This document shows, piece after piece, positions 7,815-21,574 of a stretch of 64,000 bases of DNA. The notes under the pieces were generated by a model, which saw only the letters and a program-made list of their open reading frames with translations, ran no database searches and had not been told where the DNA came from. The stretch comes from Parabacteroides distasonis. Its GTDB lineage: Bacteria > Bacteroidota > Bacteroidia > Bacteroidales > Tannerellaceae. The DNA is taken from NCBI GenBank assembly GCA_015060925.1, contig SUXM01000001.1, positions 124,001-188,000 of the forward strand, given 5' to 3'. Each line of letters opens with the position of its first letter. Positions within the stretch are counted from its first letter, which is position 1. The position numbers and the translations under genes were made by a program.

Positions 7815-8381
7815 TTATCCGTTAAAAAAGATATGTTCTATTAATATTTTTGTTCCGATTATGATTAAGATAATACCGCCGATTAGGTCTAATTTTAAAT
7901 CCATTTTACGTTTAAAATGATTTCCAAAATAAACACCGAATGCAGAGAAAAGAAAGGTGACGATACCAATAGTGAGTGATTCTAAAACAATGGCTGATTG
8001 TAAACAAGCAAAAGAGATTCCCACTGCAAGTGCGTCAATGCTTGTTGCAATGCCTAAACCGCATAGGGTTTTGTAGCAAAGAGGGTTTATTTTGGGGGTA
8101 TTCTCTTTTTCTTGAAAACTTTCATAAATCATATTAACTCCTAAATAAAGAAGTAAAAGAAATGCAATCCAGTGATCGAAAGCTTTGATGTATTTACTGA
8201 AACTTACTCCTGCTACATATCCCAATAGTGTCATGCCGGCTTGGAAGAGTCCCATAATACAACCGACCTTGATCATGTGGTGTGGTTTGTATTCCTTTAT
8301 AAGGGCTCCGTCTGTAACAGAAACAGCGAGACTGTCCATAGACAATCCCACTGCTAATAGTAATATTTCAATAAATGACAT
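7815..8381 (-). CDS. mntP: putative Mn2+ efflux pump MntP
   Basis: This 188-residue protein has six predicted membrane helices arranged as two repeats. Each repeat carries a conserved acidic helix: LSMDSLAVS (Asp16) and TSIDALAVG (Asp116), as in the MntP/DUF204 family that exports manganese. It follows the glycosyltransferase gene after 8 nt. No yybP-ykoY-type riboswitch has room upstream, so any metal control must act on the operon promoter. Confidence 0.92.
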   Translation of the reverse strand: MSFIEILLLAVGLSMDSLAVSVTDGALIKEYKPHHMIKVGCIMGLFQAGMTLLGYVAGVSFSKYIKAFDHWIAFLLLLYLGVNMIYESFQEKENTPKINPLCYKTLCGLGIATSIDALAVGISFACLQSAIVLESLTIGIVTFLFSAFGVYFGNHFKRKMDLKLDLIGGIILIIIGTKILIEHIFFNG

Positions 8382-8389
8382 ATCGTTCC

Positions 8390-9343
8390 TTATAATTCAG
8401 TTTCGATTTTGTATTTGTTTCGATGGGGAGAATCTCTGGAAATCAATTCGCCGATAAAACCTGATAAGAACATTTGTGTTCCAAGAATCATGGATGTTAA
8501 TGAAATGTAGAAAAATGGCGAATTAGTGACTAAAGGTCTCAACTCTCCTGTACAAATCGAAATCAGTTTTGCACTTAATACGATGACTAATGAGATAAAG
8601 CCGATAAAGAACATGACACTACCCCATAAGCCAAAGAAGTGCATTGGTTTTTTTCCAAATTTAGAAGTAAACCATAAGGTGATAAGATCTAAATAACCAT
8701 TAACAAAACGGTCTAATCCGAATTTGGTTGTCCCATATTTGCGTGCTTGATGTTGTACAACCTTTTCTCCAATCTTGCCAAATCCGGCGATCTTGGCCAA
8801 ATATGGGATGTAACGATGCATGTCGTTGTAAATTTCAATGTTCTTGATGACTATGTTCTTGTATGCTTTCAAGCCGCAATTGAAATCATGCAGGTTCTTG
8901 ATTCCGGAAAACTTACGGGCAGTCGCATTAAACAATTTAGTCGGTATTGTTTTAGAAAGCGGGTCATAACGCTTTTTTTTCCAGCCTGATACCAAATCAT
9001 AGCCATCTTCAGTTATCATGCGGTATAATTCAGGAATTTCATCCGGACTATCTTGTAAGTCTGCGTCCATGGTGATTACCACATCCCCCTGTGCTCGTTG
9101 GAATCCGCAGTTTAATCCGGGAGATTTTCCGTAGTTACGGCGGAATTTGACTGCACGAACAATATCCGGAGCTTTGCTTTTTAAAGATTCTATCACTTCC
9201 CAAGAATTATCTGTGCTTCCATCATTGATAAAGATAACTTCATATGTGAAGTGGTTTTCTTTCATTACTCGCTCTATCCATTCAAATAACTCAGGTAGCG
9301 ATTCAGCCTCATTGTACAATGGGATAACAACTGATATATCCAT
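8390..9343 (-). CDS. membrane-anchored family 2 glycosyltransferase (DPM1/ArnC type)
   Basis: This 317-residue protein has a GT2 catalytic domain at residues 1-~225 (SVVIPLYNEAESL; DxD motif TMDADLQD with Asp93 and Asp95) followed by two membrane helices at about 235-260 and 275-300. This is the layout of enzymes that transfer a sugar to undecaprenyl phosphate. The sugar is not predictable. It sits 23 nt after the DUF4199 gene, a pairing common in Bacteroidales. Confidence 0.9.
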   Translation of the reverse strand: MDISVVIPLYNEAESLPELFEWIERVMKENHFTYEVIFINDGSTDNSWEVIESLKSKAPDIVRAVKFRRNYGKSPGLNCGFQRAQGDVVITMDADLQDSPDEIPELYRMITEDGYDLVSGWKKKRYDPLSKTIPTKLFNATARKFSGIKNLHDFNCGLKAYKNIVIKNIEIYNDMHRYIPYLAKIAGFGKIGEKVVQHQARKYGTTKFGLDRFVNGYLDLITLWFTSKFGKKPMHFFGLWGSVMFFIGFISLVIVLSAKLISICTGELRPLVTNSPFFYISLTSMILGTQMFLSGFIGELISRDSPHRNKYKIETEL

Positions 9344-10048: not shown

Positions 10049-10122
10049 AGCCTCTTGTCGGATTCGAACCAACGACCCCGAGATTACAAATCACGTGCTC
10101 TGGCCAACTGAGCTAAAGAGGC
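10049..10122 (-). tRNA. tRNA-Thr (anticodon TGT)
   Basis: The minus strand folds as a cloverleaf: acceptor GCCTCTT/AAGAGGC, D-arm GCTC...GAGC, anticodon loop TTTGTAA with anticodon TGT, and T-arm with GGTTCGAATCC. The anticodon stem has one T-T mismatch. CCA is not encoded. It begins 4 nt after the SRP RNA on the same strand. Confidence 0.95.
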
Positions 10123-10126
10123 AGAT

Positions 10127-10222
10127 GGGTAAGCTGGCTACATCGCGCCGCTACAACCAAGTACCCTTGCTACGGTCAAGTCCTGGGGGATTCCGAGGGA
10201 GCTTGCCGTGTAGGACTTACCC
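10127..10222 (-). ncRNA. ffs: small bacterial SRP RNA (4.5S RNA)
   Basis: The roughly 96-nt minus-strand sequence closes with a perfect GGGTAAG/CTTACCC stem (10216-10222 with 10127-10133). It carries the conserved SRP core: CCCCCAGGAC, a TTGA tetraloop, and AGCAAGGGTA (plus coordinates 10162-10171), then the GATGTAGCC segment seen near the 3' end of 4.5S RNAs. It binds Ffh and guides inner-membrane proteins to SecYEG. It was recognised by conserved segments, not by a covariance search. Confidence 0.87.
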
Positions 10223-10227
10223 GGGTG

Positions 10228-10258
10228 CAAAGGTAGATATTATTTCTTATAATGCAAG
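10228..10258 (-). promoter_or_regulatory. promoter of SRP RNA / tRNA-Thr transcript
   Basis: On the minus strand, CTTG (10255-10258), a 19-base spacer and TACCTTTG (10228-10235) are followed about 5 nt later by the GGGTAAG start of the SRP RNA. This is a near-perfect Bacteroides promoter. Confidence 0.75.
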
Positions 10259-16326: not shown

Positions 16327-17640
16327 TTACTGTTGCATTAAATATTGTTTGAAATCCTCAAAGTCTTTGTTAAGTTCAATACTTTGTTTCTCTCCCTGCA
16401 TAAAAGCTTTAAGTTTTTCCGGAATTTCGATATCTGCTTCTAAGATTGTATCTACAGTCCCTTTGAATTTGGCCGGGTGAGCTGTCTCCAAGAATACCCC
16501 GGTTTCATTCTGTGTGAGTTGATTGTCAAGCAACGCTTGATAGCCACATGCACCGTGTGGATCCAAGATATATCCGGTTTGCTTATAGGTTTGCTTCATT
16601 GTTTCACCTATCTCTTCATCTGTGAAGCGGTAACCGCTAATCAATTCGCATATTGCTTGGTGAGTGTCCTCTTTTGAACTGAACAGATCCAAGATACGGG
16701 CAAAATTACTTGGGTTACCTACATCCATGGCATTTGCAATCGTTGGTACGGATGGACGAGGTGTATAAACTGCTGTTTGGAGATATTCCAAGAAGACATC
16801 ATTACGGTTATTTGCTGCGATGAAACGTTTGATAGGCAACCCCATCCAATAGGCAAAGATACCAGCTGTAATATTTCCGAAGTTACCGCTTGGTACGGAT
16901 ACAACCAACTCGTCTGCTTTTCCGATTCTGTCTAATTGCGCATATGCATTGAAGTAGTAAAAAGACTGGGGTAGGAAACGAGCTACATTGATTGAGTTTG
17001 CAGAAGTCAGTTTCATGTGCTGATTCAACTCCTCATCCATGAATGCTGATTTAACTAAGGCTTGGCAGTCATCAAATGTTCCATCTATTTCCAAGGCTGT
17101 GATGTTCTGGCCTAATGTGGTAAATTGACATTCCTGAATCGGGCTGACTTTACCTTTGGGATAAAGAACATATACATGGATACCGGGTACTCCCAAGAAA
17201 CCATTGGCTACCGCACTACCTGTATCTCCGGAGGTGGCAACCAATACGTTTACCTGTTTCAAACCCTCTTTCTTGATGAAGTAACCTAACAGGCGTGCCA
17301 TGAAACGTGCCCCTACATCTTTGAATGCTAATGTAGGTCCATGGAAAAGTTCCAAGCTGTATATGTTATCATGAACATTGACGACAGGAGTGTCGAATGC
17401 CAATGTATCTTTCACTATTTCATTAAGAGTATCAGCCTCAATGTCTTCCCCAAAGAATGCTTGGGCAACAAGACAAGCAATTTCGTGGAATGATTTGTTT
17501 TTTAAATCAGCGATGACCTCTTTATCTATCGGTTTGATATATTCCGGCATGTATAGCCCTTTGTCACTCGCAAGCCCTTTTACGACTGCTTCTTCTAAAG
17601 TTGCGTATGGCGCTTGTTTGTTGGTACTGTAATATCTCAT
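16327..17640 (-). CDS. thrC: threonine synthase
   Basis: This 437-residue PLP enzyme has the Schiff-base lysine in HGPTLAFKDVGAR (Lys107) and the phosphate-cradle segment ATSGDTGSAVANGF. It converts O-phosphohomoserine to threonine. It is the last gene of the operon thrA, iPGM-like, thrC. Its start overlaps the end of the iPGM-like gene by 4 nt, so the two are translationally coupled. Confidence 0.96.
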   Translation of the reverse strand: MRYYSTNKQAPYATLEEAVVKGLASDKGLYMPEYIKPIDKEVIADLKNKSFHEIACLVAQAFFGEDIEADTLNEIVKDTLAFDTPVVNVHDNIYSLELFHGPTLAFKDVGARFMARLLGYFIKKEGLKQVNVLVATSGDTGSAVANGFLGVPGIHVYVLYPKGKVSPIQECQFTTLGQNITALEIDGTFDDCQALVKSAFMDEELNQHMKLTSANSINVARFLPQSFYYFNAYAQLDRIGKADELVVSVPSGNFGNITAGIFAYWMGLPIKRFIAANNRNDVFLEYLQTAVYTPRPSVPTIANAMDVGNPSNFARILDLFSSKEDTHQAICELISGYRFTDEEIGETMKQTYKQTGYILDPHGACGYQALLDNQLTQNETGVFLETAHPAKFKGTVDTILEADIEIPEKLKAFMQGEKQSIELNKDFEDFKQYLMQQ

Positions 17641-18839
17641 AGTAACTCTTTAATAAATTCATTGTTTGATAAAATCCCGTATTTCCCATTTAAGACAGCA
17701 CTTTCGTCGAAGCAAGTTACGGCGTCAGGCGTTTGTCCCGGCTTGTAAATAAGGAAAGGTACAGGTGTGTTGGTATGTGTACGAATGGCACATGGTGTCG
17801 GATGATCAGGAAGGACTGCTATCGCTACCGGTTCATCCCATGTTTGCAGTTCTTCAAATAGGATGCGAAGAATCCTTTTGTCTAAATTCTCAATTGTTTG
17901 AATCTTTAATTCGACATCTCCTTCGTGTCCGGCTTCATCACTTGCCTCTACATGCAAGTAAACAAAATCATCTGTCTTCAACGCTTCGAGTGCAGCTTGC
18001 GCCTTCCCTTCGTAGTTGGTGTCGTACAATCCGGTTGCACCTTCGACTTCAATCACTTTTAGTCCGGCATACACACCGATACCCCGAATCAAATCAACAG
18101 CAGAGATAACAGAACCCTGTTTGAATCCATACATCTCTTGCATCGTTTGCATGGCAGGGCGATACCCCGGAGACCAAGGCCAAATACTATTCGCCGGGTC
18201 TTTACCTTCTGCTATGCGTTTCTTGTTGATAGGATGGCTTGCCAAAAGCTGTTGGGATTTCAATATTAGCTCATTCAGTAAATCTGCAGTTCCTTGCGCT
18301 TCGGGCACTTCTGCTTTGACCATCAATGGACGGAAAGGCTGCAAAGGTACATCATGAGGAGGTGTACAATCCAAACGTTTGTCAGCTCCTTTGATGACTA
18401 AAAGATGGCGATAGGAGACACCGGTATGGAATTGGATACGGTCGGAACCTAACTGTTCATTCAAGAATTGAATCAGTTCATCAGCCTCTTCAGTTGTGAT
18501 ATGTCCGGAAGAGTGGTTCTTTAGAATATCACCTTCAACGCAGATAAGGTTACAGCGCATCGCCATTTCTCCCGGTTGCAACTCATAGCCTATACTTGCT
18601 GCTTCTAAAACACCTCTTCCTTCATAAACAGTAGGAAGGTCATATCCTAAGATAGCCATATTGGCTACTTCACTACCGGGATGAAAGCCGTCTGCAACTG
18701 TTTTTAGTCTTCCGGTAACACCAAGCCGAGCCAATTGATCCATATAAGGAGTTTGCGCATATTGCATGGGAGTTTTACCTCCCAATGCTTCTATGGGCTC
18801 ATCGGCCATACCATCGCCTAATATGATTATTGTTTTCAT
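17637..18839 (-). CDS. iPGM-family protein in the threonine operon, probable homoserine kinase
   Basis: This 400-residue protein belongs to the archaeal-type 2,3-BPG-independent phosphoglycerate mutase group (ApgM) of the alkaline phosphatase superfamily: metal-site motifs LGDGMADEPIEALGGKTPM at the N-terminus, GSEVANMAILGYD, and LPDHPTPCAIRTHT near the C-terminus. By name it would interconvert 3- and 2-phosphoglycerate. It lies between thrA and thrC with an 8-nt gap on one side and a 4-nt overlap on the other, and no GHMP-type thrB is present. Comparative genomics has linked such genes to the missing homoserine kinase step in Bacteroidota. I infer that role from position. Confidence 0.82.
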   Translation of the reverse strand: MKTIIILGDGMADEPIEALGGKTPMQYAQTPYMDQLARLGVTGRLKTVADGFHPGSEVANMAILGYDLPTVYEGRGVLEAASIGYELQPGEMAMRCNLICVEGDILKNHSSGHITTEEADELIQFLNEQLGSDRIQFHTGVSYRHLLVIKGADKRLDCTPPHDVPLQPFRPLMVKAEVPEAQGTADLLNELILKSQQLLASHPINKKRIAEGKDPANSIWPWSPGYRPAMQTMQEMYGFKQGSVISAVDLIRGIGVYAGLKVIEVEGATGLYDTNYEGKAQAALEALKTDDFVYLHVEASDEAGHEGDVELKIQTIENLDKRILRILFEELQTWDEPVAIAVLPDHPTPCAIRTHTNTPVPFLIYKPGQTPDAVTCFDESAVLNGKYGILSNNEFIKELL

Positions 18840-21286: not shown

Positions 21287-21448
21287 TGATTATATACTTT
21301 AATAGCAATAACAAGTTGCAGCTACGATTGGGTAGGGGAACTTGTTTGCCGATGATTTTTACTAAATGTGTTTAGTTGATTTTTAAGAATGCAATTAAGA
21401 TTGCAACAATGCAGGACGTGGTCTCTGCCTTTGTCTGTTTAAGATATA
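21287..21448 (-). promoter_or_regulatory. structured thr operon leader downstream of the leader peptide
   Basis: This untranslated stretch between the leader peptide stop and thrA can form several hairpins. GCAGAGAC/GTCCTGC with one bulge lies at 21411-21428. A perfect 8-bp AACAAGTT/AACTTGTT stem lies at 21310-21346, ending 24 nt before the thrA ATG. None is followed by a convincing U-tract, so control could be by transcription pausing or by access to the thrA start. The arrangement is seen in the sequence; the mechanism is inferred. Confidence 0.5.
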
Positions 21449-21511
21449 CTACACCCCCCAAGGGGTCATTGTAGTAGTGCAGGTATGATATGTGAAACCT
21501 GTTAAAGTCAT
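21449..21511 (-). CDS. threonine operon leader peptide (20 aa, 8 Thr)
   Basis: An ATG at 21511 opens a 20-codon ORF ending in TAG at 21449, 162 nt before thrA. Eight codons encode Thr (residues 2, 4, 7, 10, 12, 13, 14 and 16), including three in a row (ACT ACT ACA). The DNA of the triple and the following codons forms a hairpin: ACTACA (21470-21475) pairs with TGTAGT (21448-21453), and CCCC pairs with GGGG inside. Ribosome stalling at the Thr codons would open this hairpin. In enterobacteria thr leader peptides control the thr operon by attenuation; here the same logic is inferred. There are no Ile codons, so the signal would be Thr alone. Confidence 0.78.
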   Translation of the reverse strand: MTLTGFTYHTCTTTMTPWGV

Positions 21512-21544
21512 TGCCTATTCTATTTGCTTTGTTTTTTGCGTTGG

Positions 21545-21574
21545 CAATATTACATATTATTTTTCAATTGCAAG
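21545..21574 (-). promoter_or_regulatory. probable thr operon promoter
   Basis: On the minus strand CTTG (21571-21574), an 18-base spacer and TAATATTG (21545-21552, one base off consensus) lie about 34 nt upstream of the leader peptide ATG. Confidence 0.55.

Follow-up and report, generated by a model that had tools for sequence, protein, structure and literature searches.

The thr operon of enterobacteria is a textbook case of leader-peptide attenuation, exerted through thrL, and in leaders such as TnaC and SpeFL it is the nascent chain that brings about arrest. The initial annotation of the locus described here took the ribosome-stalling thr leaders of enterobacteria as its precedent, which is sound, and leader-peptide attenuators occur in Bacteroidetes as well, where Bacteroid-trp (RF01692) is a described leader-peptide motif (Weinberg et al. 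2010, PMC2864571). We found RF01692 in 10 of 12 genomes searched, and each of the six loci that we read carries a run of two or three Trp codons before the terminator, in four of them as NTYWWW. At gathering score, the motif has no match in the window (the whole 64,000-nt stretch of Parabacteroides distasonis DNA that was analysed) and none in the window's own genome (G000, 88% complete). One congener has a Bacteroid-trp match, though the search of G000 gave none. Leader-peptide-like short ORFs have been reported in general terms for B. thetaiotaomicron (Ryan et al. 2020, PMC7366714), leader genes are treated generally by Korolev et al. 2016 (PMC4833913), who cite Lopatovskaya et al. 2010, and the main text of Naville and Gautheret 2010 (PMC2965389) contains no word starting with Bacteroid. 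Among the open-licence titles listed, none deals with a thr leader of Bacteroidetes. The study by Lopatovskaya et al. (Mol Biol 44:128) may hold predictions of such leaders.

The sequence before thrA in the window is a real regulatory leader, and, with a probability that we put at about 0.8, it acts as a ribosome-mediated attenuator of an operon made up of thrA, an apgM-type homoserine kinase gene and thrC. The features, all on the minus strand, are listed here in the direction of transcription.

21545..21574, minus: thr operon promoter, CTTG-N18-TAATATTG, read from the sequence, with the same boxes visible in relatives
21512..21544, minus: short 5' UTR ahead of the leader ORF, delimited from sequence only
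21449..21511, minus: leader peptide ORF, MTLTGFTYHTCTTTMTPWGV followed by a stop codon, with 8 Thr codons and 1 internal Met codon
21448..21475, minus: hairpin H1; 5' arm formed by the control codons ACT ACA plus CCCC, 3' arm by GGGG and TGTAGT, which includes the stop codon
21406..21434, minus: hairpin H2 (ACAA..GCAG.GAC CAC GTC.CTGC..TTGT), from covariation
21385..21405, minus: hairpin H3 (TGCAAT-CTTA-ATTGCA) with the degenerate U-tract TTCTT, at the terminator position of relatives
21310..21346, minus: further hairpin, AACAAGTT..AACTTGTT, with a stretch moderately rich in T behind it and with arms resembling those at the sister locus L227
18848..21286, minus: thrA, bifunctional aspartate kinase/homoserine dehydrogenase I, the first regulated gene (NF006959, 1040 bits, cut-off 726)
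17637..18839, minus: apgM-like gene in the place of thrB, matching TIGR02535, "proposed homoserine kinase" (561 bits, cut-off 446)
16327..17640, minus: thrC, threonine synthase (TIGR00260, above cut-off)

Read directly from the sequence, the 20-codon leader ORF at 21511-21449 (ATG-ACT-TTA-ACA-GGT-TTC-ACA-TAT-CAT-ACC-TGC-ACT-ACT-ACA-ATG-ACC-CCT-TGG-GGG-GTG-TAG) contains eight Thr codons, three of them consecutive, and is separated by 162 nt from the ATG of thrA (21286). In these respects the initial annotation was right in all its numbers, as it was in placing the Thr triple in one arm (the 5' arm) of the hairpin at 21448-21475 and in noting a promoter-like TTG-N18-TAATATTG at 21573-21545. The boxes of the latter (TTG at 21573-21571 and TAATATTG at 21552-21545, with N18 between them) fit the Bacteroides -33/-7 consensus. 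A Thr fraction this high is reached by one of the 860 ATG ORFs of 12-40 aa on both strands of the 64-kb window, and eight Thr out of 19 residues has a binomial p of 3e-6. The ORF has both its start and its stop inside the leader, and its control codons lie in or adjoin the 5' arm of a hairpin, as in a ribosome-mediated attenuator. The leader as a whole (21544-21287) folds better than dinucleotide shuffles (z -3.07; one of 200 shuffles folds as well), and a terminator-like site at 21666-21628 sets the thr operon apart from the gene upstream. The Thr triple is not an assembly artefact, because the leader reads MTLIGYTYHTYTTTMTPWGV in a sister genome (G114) whose ThrA is 96% identical over 325 aa.

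For relatives, we compiled 222 thrA loci that include upstream DNA, some duplicated across two collections and some with little upstream sequence. Leaders were called blind to Thr, by locating a CCC/GGG hairpin that lies 45-280 nt ahead of thrA and then taking the ORF in the register of that hairpin. Hairpin-anchored leader ORFs were called at 125 of the 222 loci and, among the loci nearest to the window (the nearest named ones are Parabacteroides), at 28 of the 29 with upstream DNA, the window counted. No call was made at 97 of the 222 loci, some with little upstream DNA, including one in a congener (L031); four of the 125 calls (L075, L076, L202 and L211) are likely false and were set aside. 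At L031, promoter-like boxes stand shortly before thrA. The layout, an ORF with control codons and H1 right behind them, is kept across many Bacteroidales; examples are MQNKPPYFSYTTTTTPWGV (L142), MMFWQLHITTTTTTTPAGV (L161), MTKCYLYTTAAMRMWTMTTTTTMMTPRG (L088) and MTMMKYYPHTVTSMCTMTLRG (L120, Bacteroides salyersiae), and MSATTTITITTP (L054) comes from another order of the class.

Covariance models place this leader at thrA with few other matches. Model R1, built from 18 sequences including the window, has one match in the window's own genome, upstream of thrA, at E 2.9e-13, with 145 of 722 first-pass candidates scored. Among 31 genomes it matched 15, once each and always just upstream of thrA; these 15 are among the 19 genomes of the window's own genus, and the 12 others gave none. 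R2 was run on 10 genomes that had been picked for having a leader, eight of them represented in the model; all 10 gave their best match at thrA, and five further matches had E values of 0.13-0.9. About 150 first-pass candidates were scored per genome in the R1 and R2 searches. No Rfam family matched the window's leader or the leaders of ten relatives at gathering score, and a looser threshold gave chance matches only, up to E 10.

The composition of the homologous leaders indicates which amino acids may be sensed. In 33 de-duplicated Bacteroidales leaders outside the window's family (called Tannerellaceae after the Parabacteroides names of its nearest loci; 90 loci were assigned to it by order of retrieval), the ten codons before the hairpin include 103 Thr codons (31%) and 50 Met codons (15%) of 330, against a background of 5.4% and 2.75%, respectively, in the long ORFs of the window; binomial p values for this enrichment ignore shared ancestry. 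Ile, counted in the same frame of the same leaders, is not raised (20/330, 6%). With the hairpin-adjacent codon left out, Met accounts for 36 of 297 codons, and 20 of the 33 leaders have such a Met. The other two frames, counted in 32 leaders (what remained of 47 once those sharing 80% identity were merged), contain 8 and 11 Thr codons and 0 and 1 Met codons of 320. In the frame tally, L202 was kept with the window's family, and L049 and L134 were counted there in error; for the set of 33, L134 was moved to the non-family group, and L049 was used neither in that count nor in the one leaving out the hairpin-adjacent codon. Because Thr is encoded by all four of its codons in the leaders, it is the amino acid, not the DNA, that is selected. 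Short ORFs are common, and an ORF could in principle have arisen by chance within a structured UTR, a notion contradicted by the frame-specific enrichment of Thr and Met and by the conservation of the leader, and one to which we give almost no credence.

These data bear on two expectations of the initial annotation. It proposed a ribosome-sensing leader peptide before a Bacteroidales thr operon, to be checked by whether Thr enrichment persists in homologous leaders despite drifting flanks; it does, and both conservation and enrichment support the proposal. It also regarded Thr as the only amino acid sensed, a view that the data do not support: Met is about five-fold enriched in the homologous leaders and the window's own leader has its internal Met codon within the control stretch, so that across the group the putative sensor is best read as one of Thr plus Met. 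In the four de-duplicated leaders from other orders, few as they are, 16 of 39 codons are Thr, 10 are Ile and one is Met, and a list pre-filtered for Thr and Met contained additional ORFs rich in Thr and Ile.

The genes of the operon offer a metabolic setting for such a sensor. Given its three genes (thrA, the apgM-like one and thrC), the operon has Thr as its end product, and codons for the end product are clustered in the leader ORF, another property of attenuators. A relative of MetA, which leads from homoserine to Met, is present in 16 of 21 genomes, including the window's own, in none of them above the curated cut-off. Threonine deaminase (IlvA) scores above the cut-off of TIGR01127 in seven of the 21 genomes, six of them congeners and none of them the window's own, and above that of TIGR01124 in none of the 21. 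The window's own genome, with a MetA relative and without IlvA above cut-off, thus agrees loosely with sensing of Thr plus Met and not of Ile; as regards Ile the fit is loose because of the seven genomes with IlvA. The apgM-like protein (17637-18839, minus) scores above the cut-offs of phosphoglycerate mutase models as well as that of TIGR02535 and is an unusual candidate for a homoserine kinase. Elsewhere in the window, a Bacteroidales small SRP RNA lies at 10049-10229 (minus), directly followed by a tRNA gene. Outside the window, the sequence of L134 has a match to the FopS paralogous sRNA family (RF04319) at 8352-8421, near a thrA locus.

Structure in the leader RNA was assessed by covariation. 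The inner C-G pairs of H1 hardly vary (three of five never do), so covariation speaks neither for nor against this hairpin. Its outer stem, examined by species swaps with a longest-helix test, is supported in Bacteroidaceae (p 0.002, or 0.01 once near-duplicates are removed), a set selected for carrying CTACG(T/C)G, and unsupported in the window's family (p 0.60) and in the remaining leaders (p 0.08); by RNA duplex energy, p is 0.06. H2 does covary, five of its 11 pairs being changed on both sides, and pairing is kept in 99.5% of cells across the 18 sequences chosen. RNAalifold, run on the raw gapped alignments, returned the H1 core and a scrap of H2 for Bacteroidaceae and H1 with the inner part of H2 for the window's family, and because these were partial, the structures of alignments A1 and A2 were written by hand. 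In A1 (18 leaders chosen from 28 of the window's family), 95.7% of cells pair and seven of 22 pairs are double-changed, against 2.3 in shuffles, none of 500 of which reach seven. In A2 (15 chosen from 25 Bacteroidaceae leaders), 91.7% of cells pair and five of 16 pairs are double-changed, against 2.7 in shuffles, with eight of 500 reaching five; additional pair types show no excess, being matched in 438 of 500 shuffles. The choice of leaders favours the structures: A1 leaves out a near-duplicate (L007), three leaders that lack an H2 of this type (L011, L017 and L171) and six with departing H2 or H3 (L029, L179, L181, L184, L188 and L199), and A2 leaves out ten leaders without H3. When all leaders were restored to the fixed columns, without shuffles, 90.4% of cells pair in the 28 rows of the window's family (12 of 22 pairs double-changed) and 83.6% in the 25 rows of Bacteroidaceae (six of 16).

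Some other features of the Bacteroidaceae leaders were seen along the way. CTACG(T/C)G, the motif used for picking the set, lies in H2 in 27 distinct leaders (e.g., L097, L102, L112 and L120), and in several leaders TGTTTCTA, beside the H2 motif, and TAGAAACA, which sits just ahead of the leader start, are complementary. The 5' UTR segment GATAGAAACA is likewise complementary to TGTTTCTAC of H2, with both sides too conserved for testing.

How a stalled ribosome might be converted into altered expression of thrA depends on the sequence behind H2. The initial annotation observed that the hairpins before thrA lack a clean U-tract and suggested a translational output or a pause. The observation is accurate for the window's H3 (GCAATCTTAATTGCATTCTTAAAAATC) and fails for its sister L227, which has a clean TTTCTTTTTTTT at that place; across the window's family, 32 of 56 leaders carry a terminator-like hairpin with a U-rich tract there or slightly further on, against a mean of 7.9 and a maximum of 12 in 20 rounds of shuffling (near-duplicates counted apart). 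Because terminator-like hairpins are enriched in the family and clean in the sister, we consider termination likelier than translational output, and the likely output in the window's family. Control of translation, by refolding of the leader that opens or closes the ribosome-binding site of thrA, would accommodate the missing clean U-tract of the window's H3 and the position of the hairpin at 21346-21310, close to thrA; the enriched terminator-like sites and the sister's tract speak against it, as does the spacing between the leader stop and thrA, which ranges between 38 and 224 nt (108 of the 125 calls have 100-200 nt), and we regard it as quite improbable. In several leaders (L008, L010, L167, L187, L193 and others), a hairpin CCGG..CCGG followed by TTCTTT or similar lies behind H3 as a tandem second terminator-like site.

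Outside the window's family, terminator-like sites are not enriched (14 of 32 other Bacteroidales leaders, against 13.95 in shuffles), and folding the RNA minus its ribosome-covered part revealed no consistent antiterminator, either in the window's family (45 leaders) or among leaders of the Bacteroidaceae type (26); of the 82 leaders taken for this folding, nine (including the window) have no U-tract by pattern and two no H1. A candidate antiterminator in the window, the pairing of freed GGGGGTGTAGT with ATTGCATTCTT, was dropped, since across the folded leaders long-range pairing of this kind is also present when no ribosome is stalled. Both null results would fit Rho-dependent attenuation, with a stalled ribosome shielding the RNA from Rho and an RNA antiterminator unneeded. 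The covarying H2 and H3 would then have no purpose, however, and the window's family has sites resembling intrinsic terminators, so that we think Rho-dependent attenuation unlikely.

The leaders of Tannerellaceae have a further property. Hairpin-anchored calls exist for 70 of its 90 loci, and TWAL is present in 64 of the 70 leaders, so that the Thr codon run itself is not the trait conserved here; the six calls without TWAL are the window, L173, L198, L202 and the likely false L075 and L076. The YYTWAL core is mostly followed by one to three Thr/Met codons. Among 51 distinct cores, third positions drift in T, A and L, with Thr written as ACA 26, ACC nine, ACG nine and ACT seven times. Taken as means over sequence pairs and not tree-based, pS and pN are 0.73 and 0.067 for YYTWAL and 0.55 and 0.51 for the four preceding codons (52 distinct sequences, loose motif pattern). 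A recount by hairpin alone (53 distinct sequences) gave 0.76 and 0.12 for YYTWAL (0.73 and 0.084 without L075 and L076) and 0.57 and 0.54 for the preceding codons, with pN somewhat higher and the contrast kept; pN/pS of YYTWAL is thus 0.09-0.16. On the 3' side of the core, the peptide varies (TPWG, TPEG, TPFG or TP-stop) and CCCC/GGGG is kept, and in L178, L186 and L189 the stop codon falls within the hairpin loop. The peptide is therefore under selection in the first part and the RNA in the second, and conservation of a peptide above that of its DNA, as in arrest peptides, is found in the window's relatives within the family.

The conserved YYTWAL is surprising, and it hints at a role of the nascent chain. 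YYTWAL might sit in the exit tunnel and slow or arrest the ribosome at the Met/Thr codons that follow, with metabolite sensing optional; few control codons would then suffice, and codon runs as in the window would be the switch's alternative setting. The low pN relative to pS, unlike in the four codons before the core, and the kept CCCC/GGGG behind a varying peptide speak for such a leader. On the other side, WAL has been lost both in the window, which has TCTTT, and in its sister L227, which has TYTTT, each with a Thr run instead, and the W and A codons (TGGGC) could serve RNA pairing, though the free third positions of T, A and L argue against that use; we regard action through the nascent chain as possible but doubtful. 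It is a tentative idea, and one that we ourselves rather doubt, that in Tannerellaceae a nascent-chain sensor arose from an attenuator based on runs of Thr/Met codons, a sensor in which YYTWAL would stall the ribosome at the next Met/Thr codons and perhaps sense a metabolite, and that the window's lineage switched back to a Thr run. If true, it would provide a natural series at one operon joining codon-run attenuation and arrest peptides.

Our preferred reading, ribosome-mediated attenuation, would work as follows. RNA polymerase would start near 21540, where we infer the transcription start, and a ribosome would translate the 20-codon leader. When charged tRNA-Thr (or, group-wide, also tRNA-Met) is short, the ribosome would stall on the Thr/Met codons immediately before and within the 5' arm of H1; H1 could not form, the RNA downstream would refold and transcription would enter thrA. 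When Thr and Met are plentiful, the ribosome would reach the stop codon in the 3' side of H1, H2 and H3 would form and transcription would end. The ORF with its control codons, the position of H1 right behind them, the persistence of this arrangement in many Bacteroidales, the covarying H2 and H3 and the U-tracts of relatives within the family can be read off directly; the stalling, the termination and the alternative fold linking them are what we infer.

Such a leader would give an abundant order of gut bacteria a measurable sensor of aspartate-pathway amino acids, in which Thr and Met, both derived from homoserine, are read by one leader in place of Thr and Ile. Lineages with and without YYTWAL make it directly testable how codon-run leaders become arrest peptides, and the leader family could join Rfam next to Bacteroid-trp.

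Our data suggest likenesses to all three described systems. As in TnaC and SpeFL, a short peptide is kept at the amino-acid level while third positions drift, in the window's family only; unlike them, the thr leader still has control codons for the operon's product, and its motif differs from theirs. With Bacteroid-trp it shares a run of control codons in a Bacteroidetes leader, one found in the window's relatives, but Bacteroid-trp has Trp codons, a different sequence and, at the loci read, strong terminators with clean U-tracts. There is also a likeness to enterobacterial thrL, which likewise combines a Thr-codon-rich leader peptide, hairpins and thrA as the first gene. The second control amino acid, however, is Ile there and Met in Bacteroidales, where a fixed C-run/G-run hairpin comes after the control codons and, in the window's family, a YYTWAL core is present. 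The principle is familiar from E. coli, and the apparent reading of Met and the conserved peptide of one family are what is surprising.
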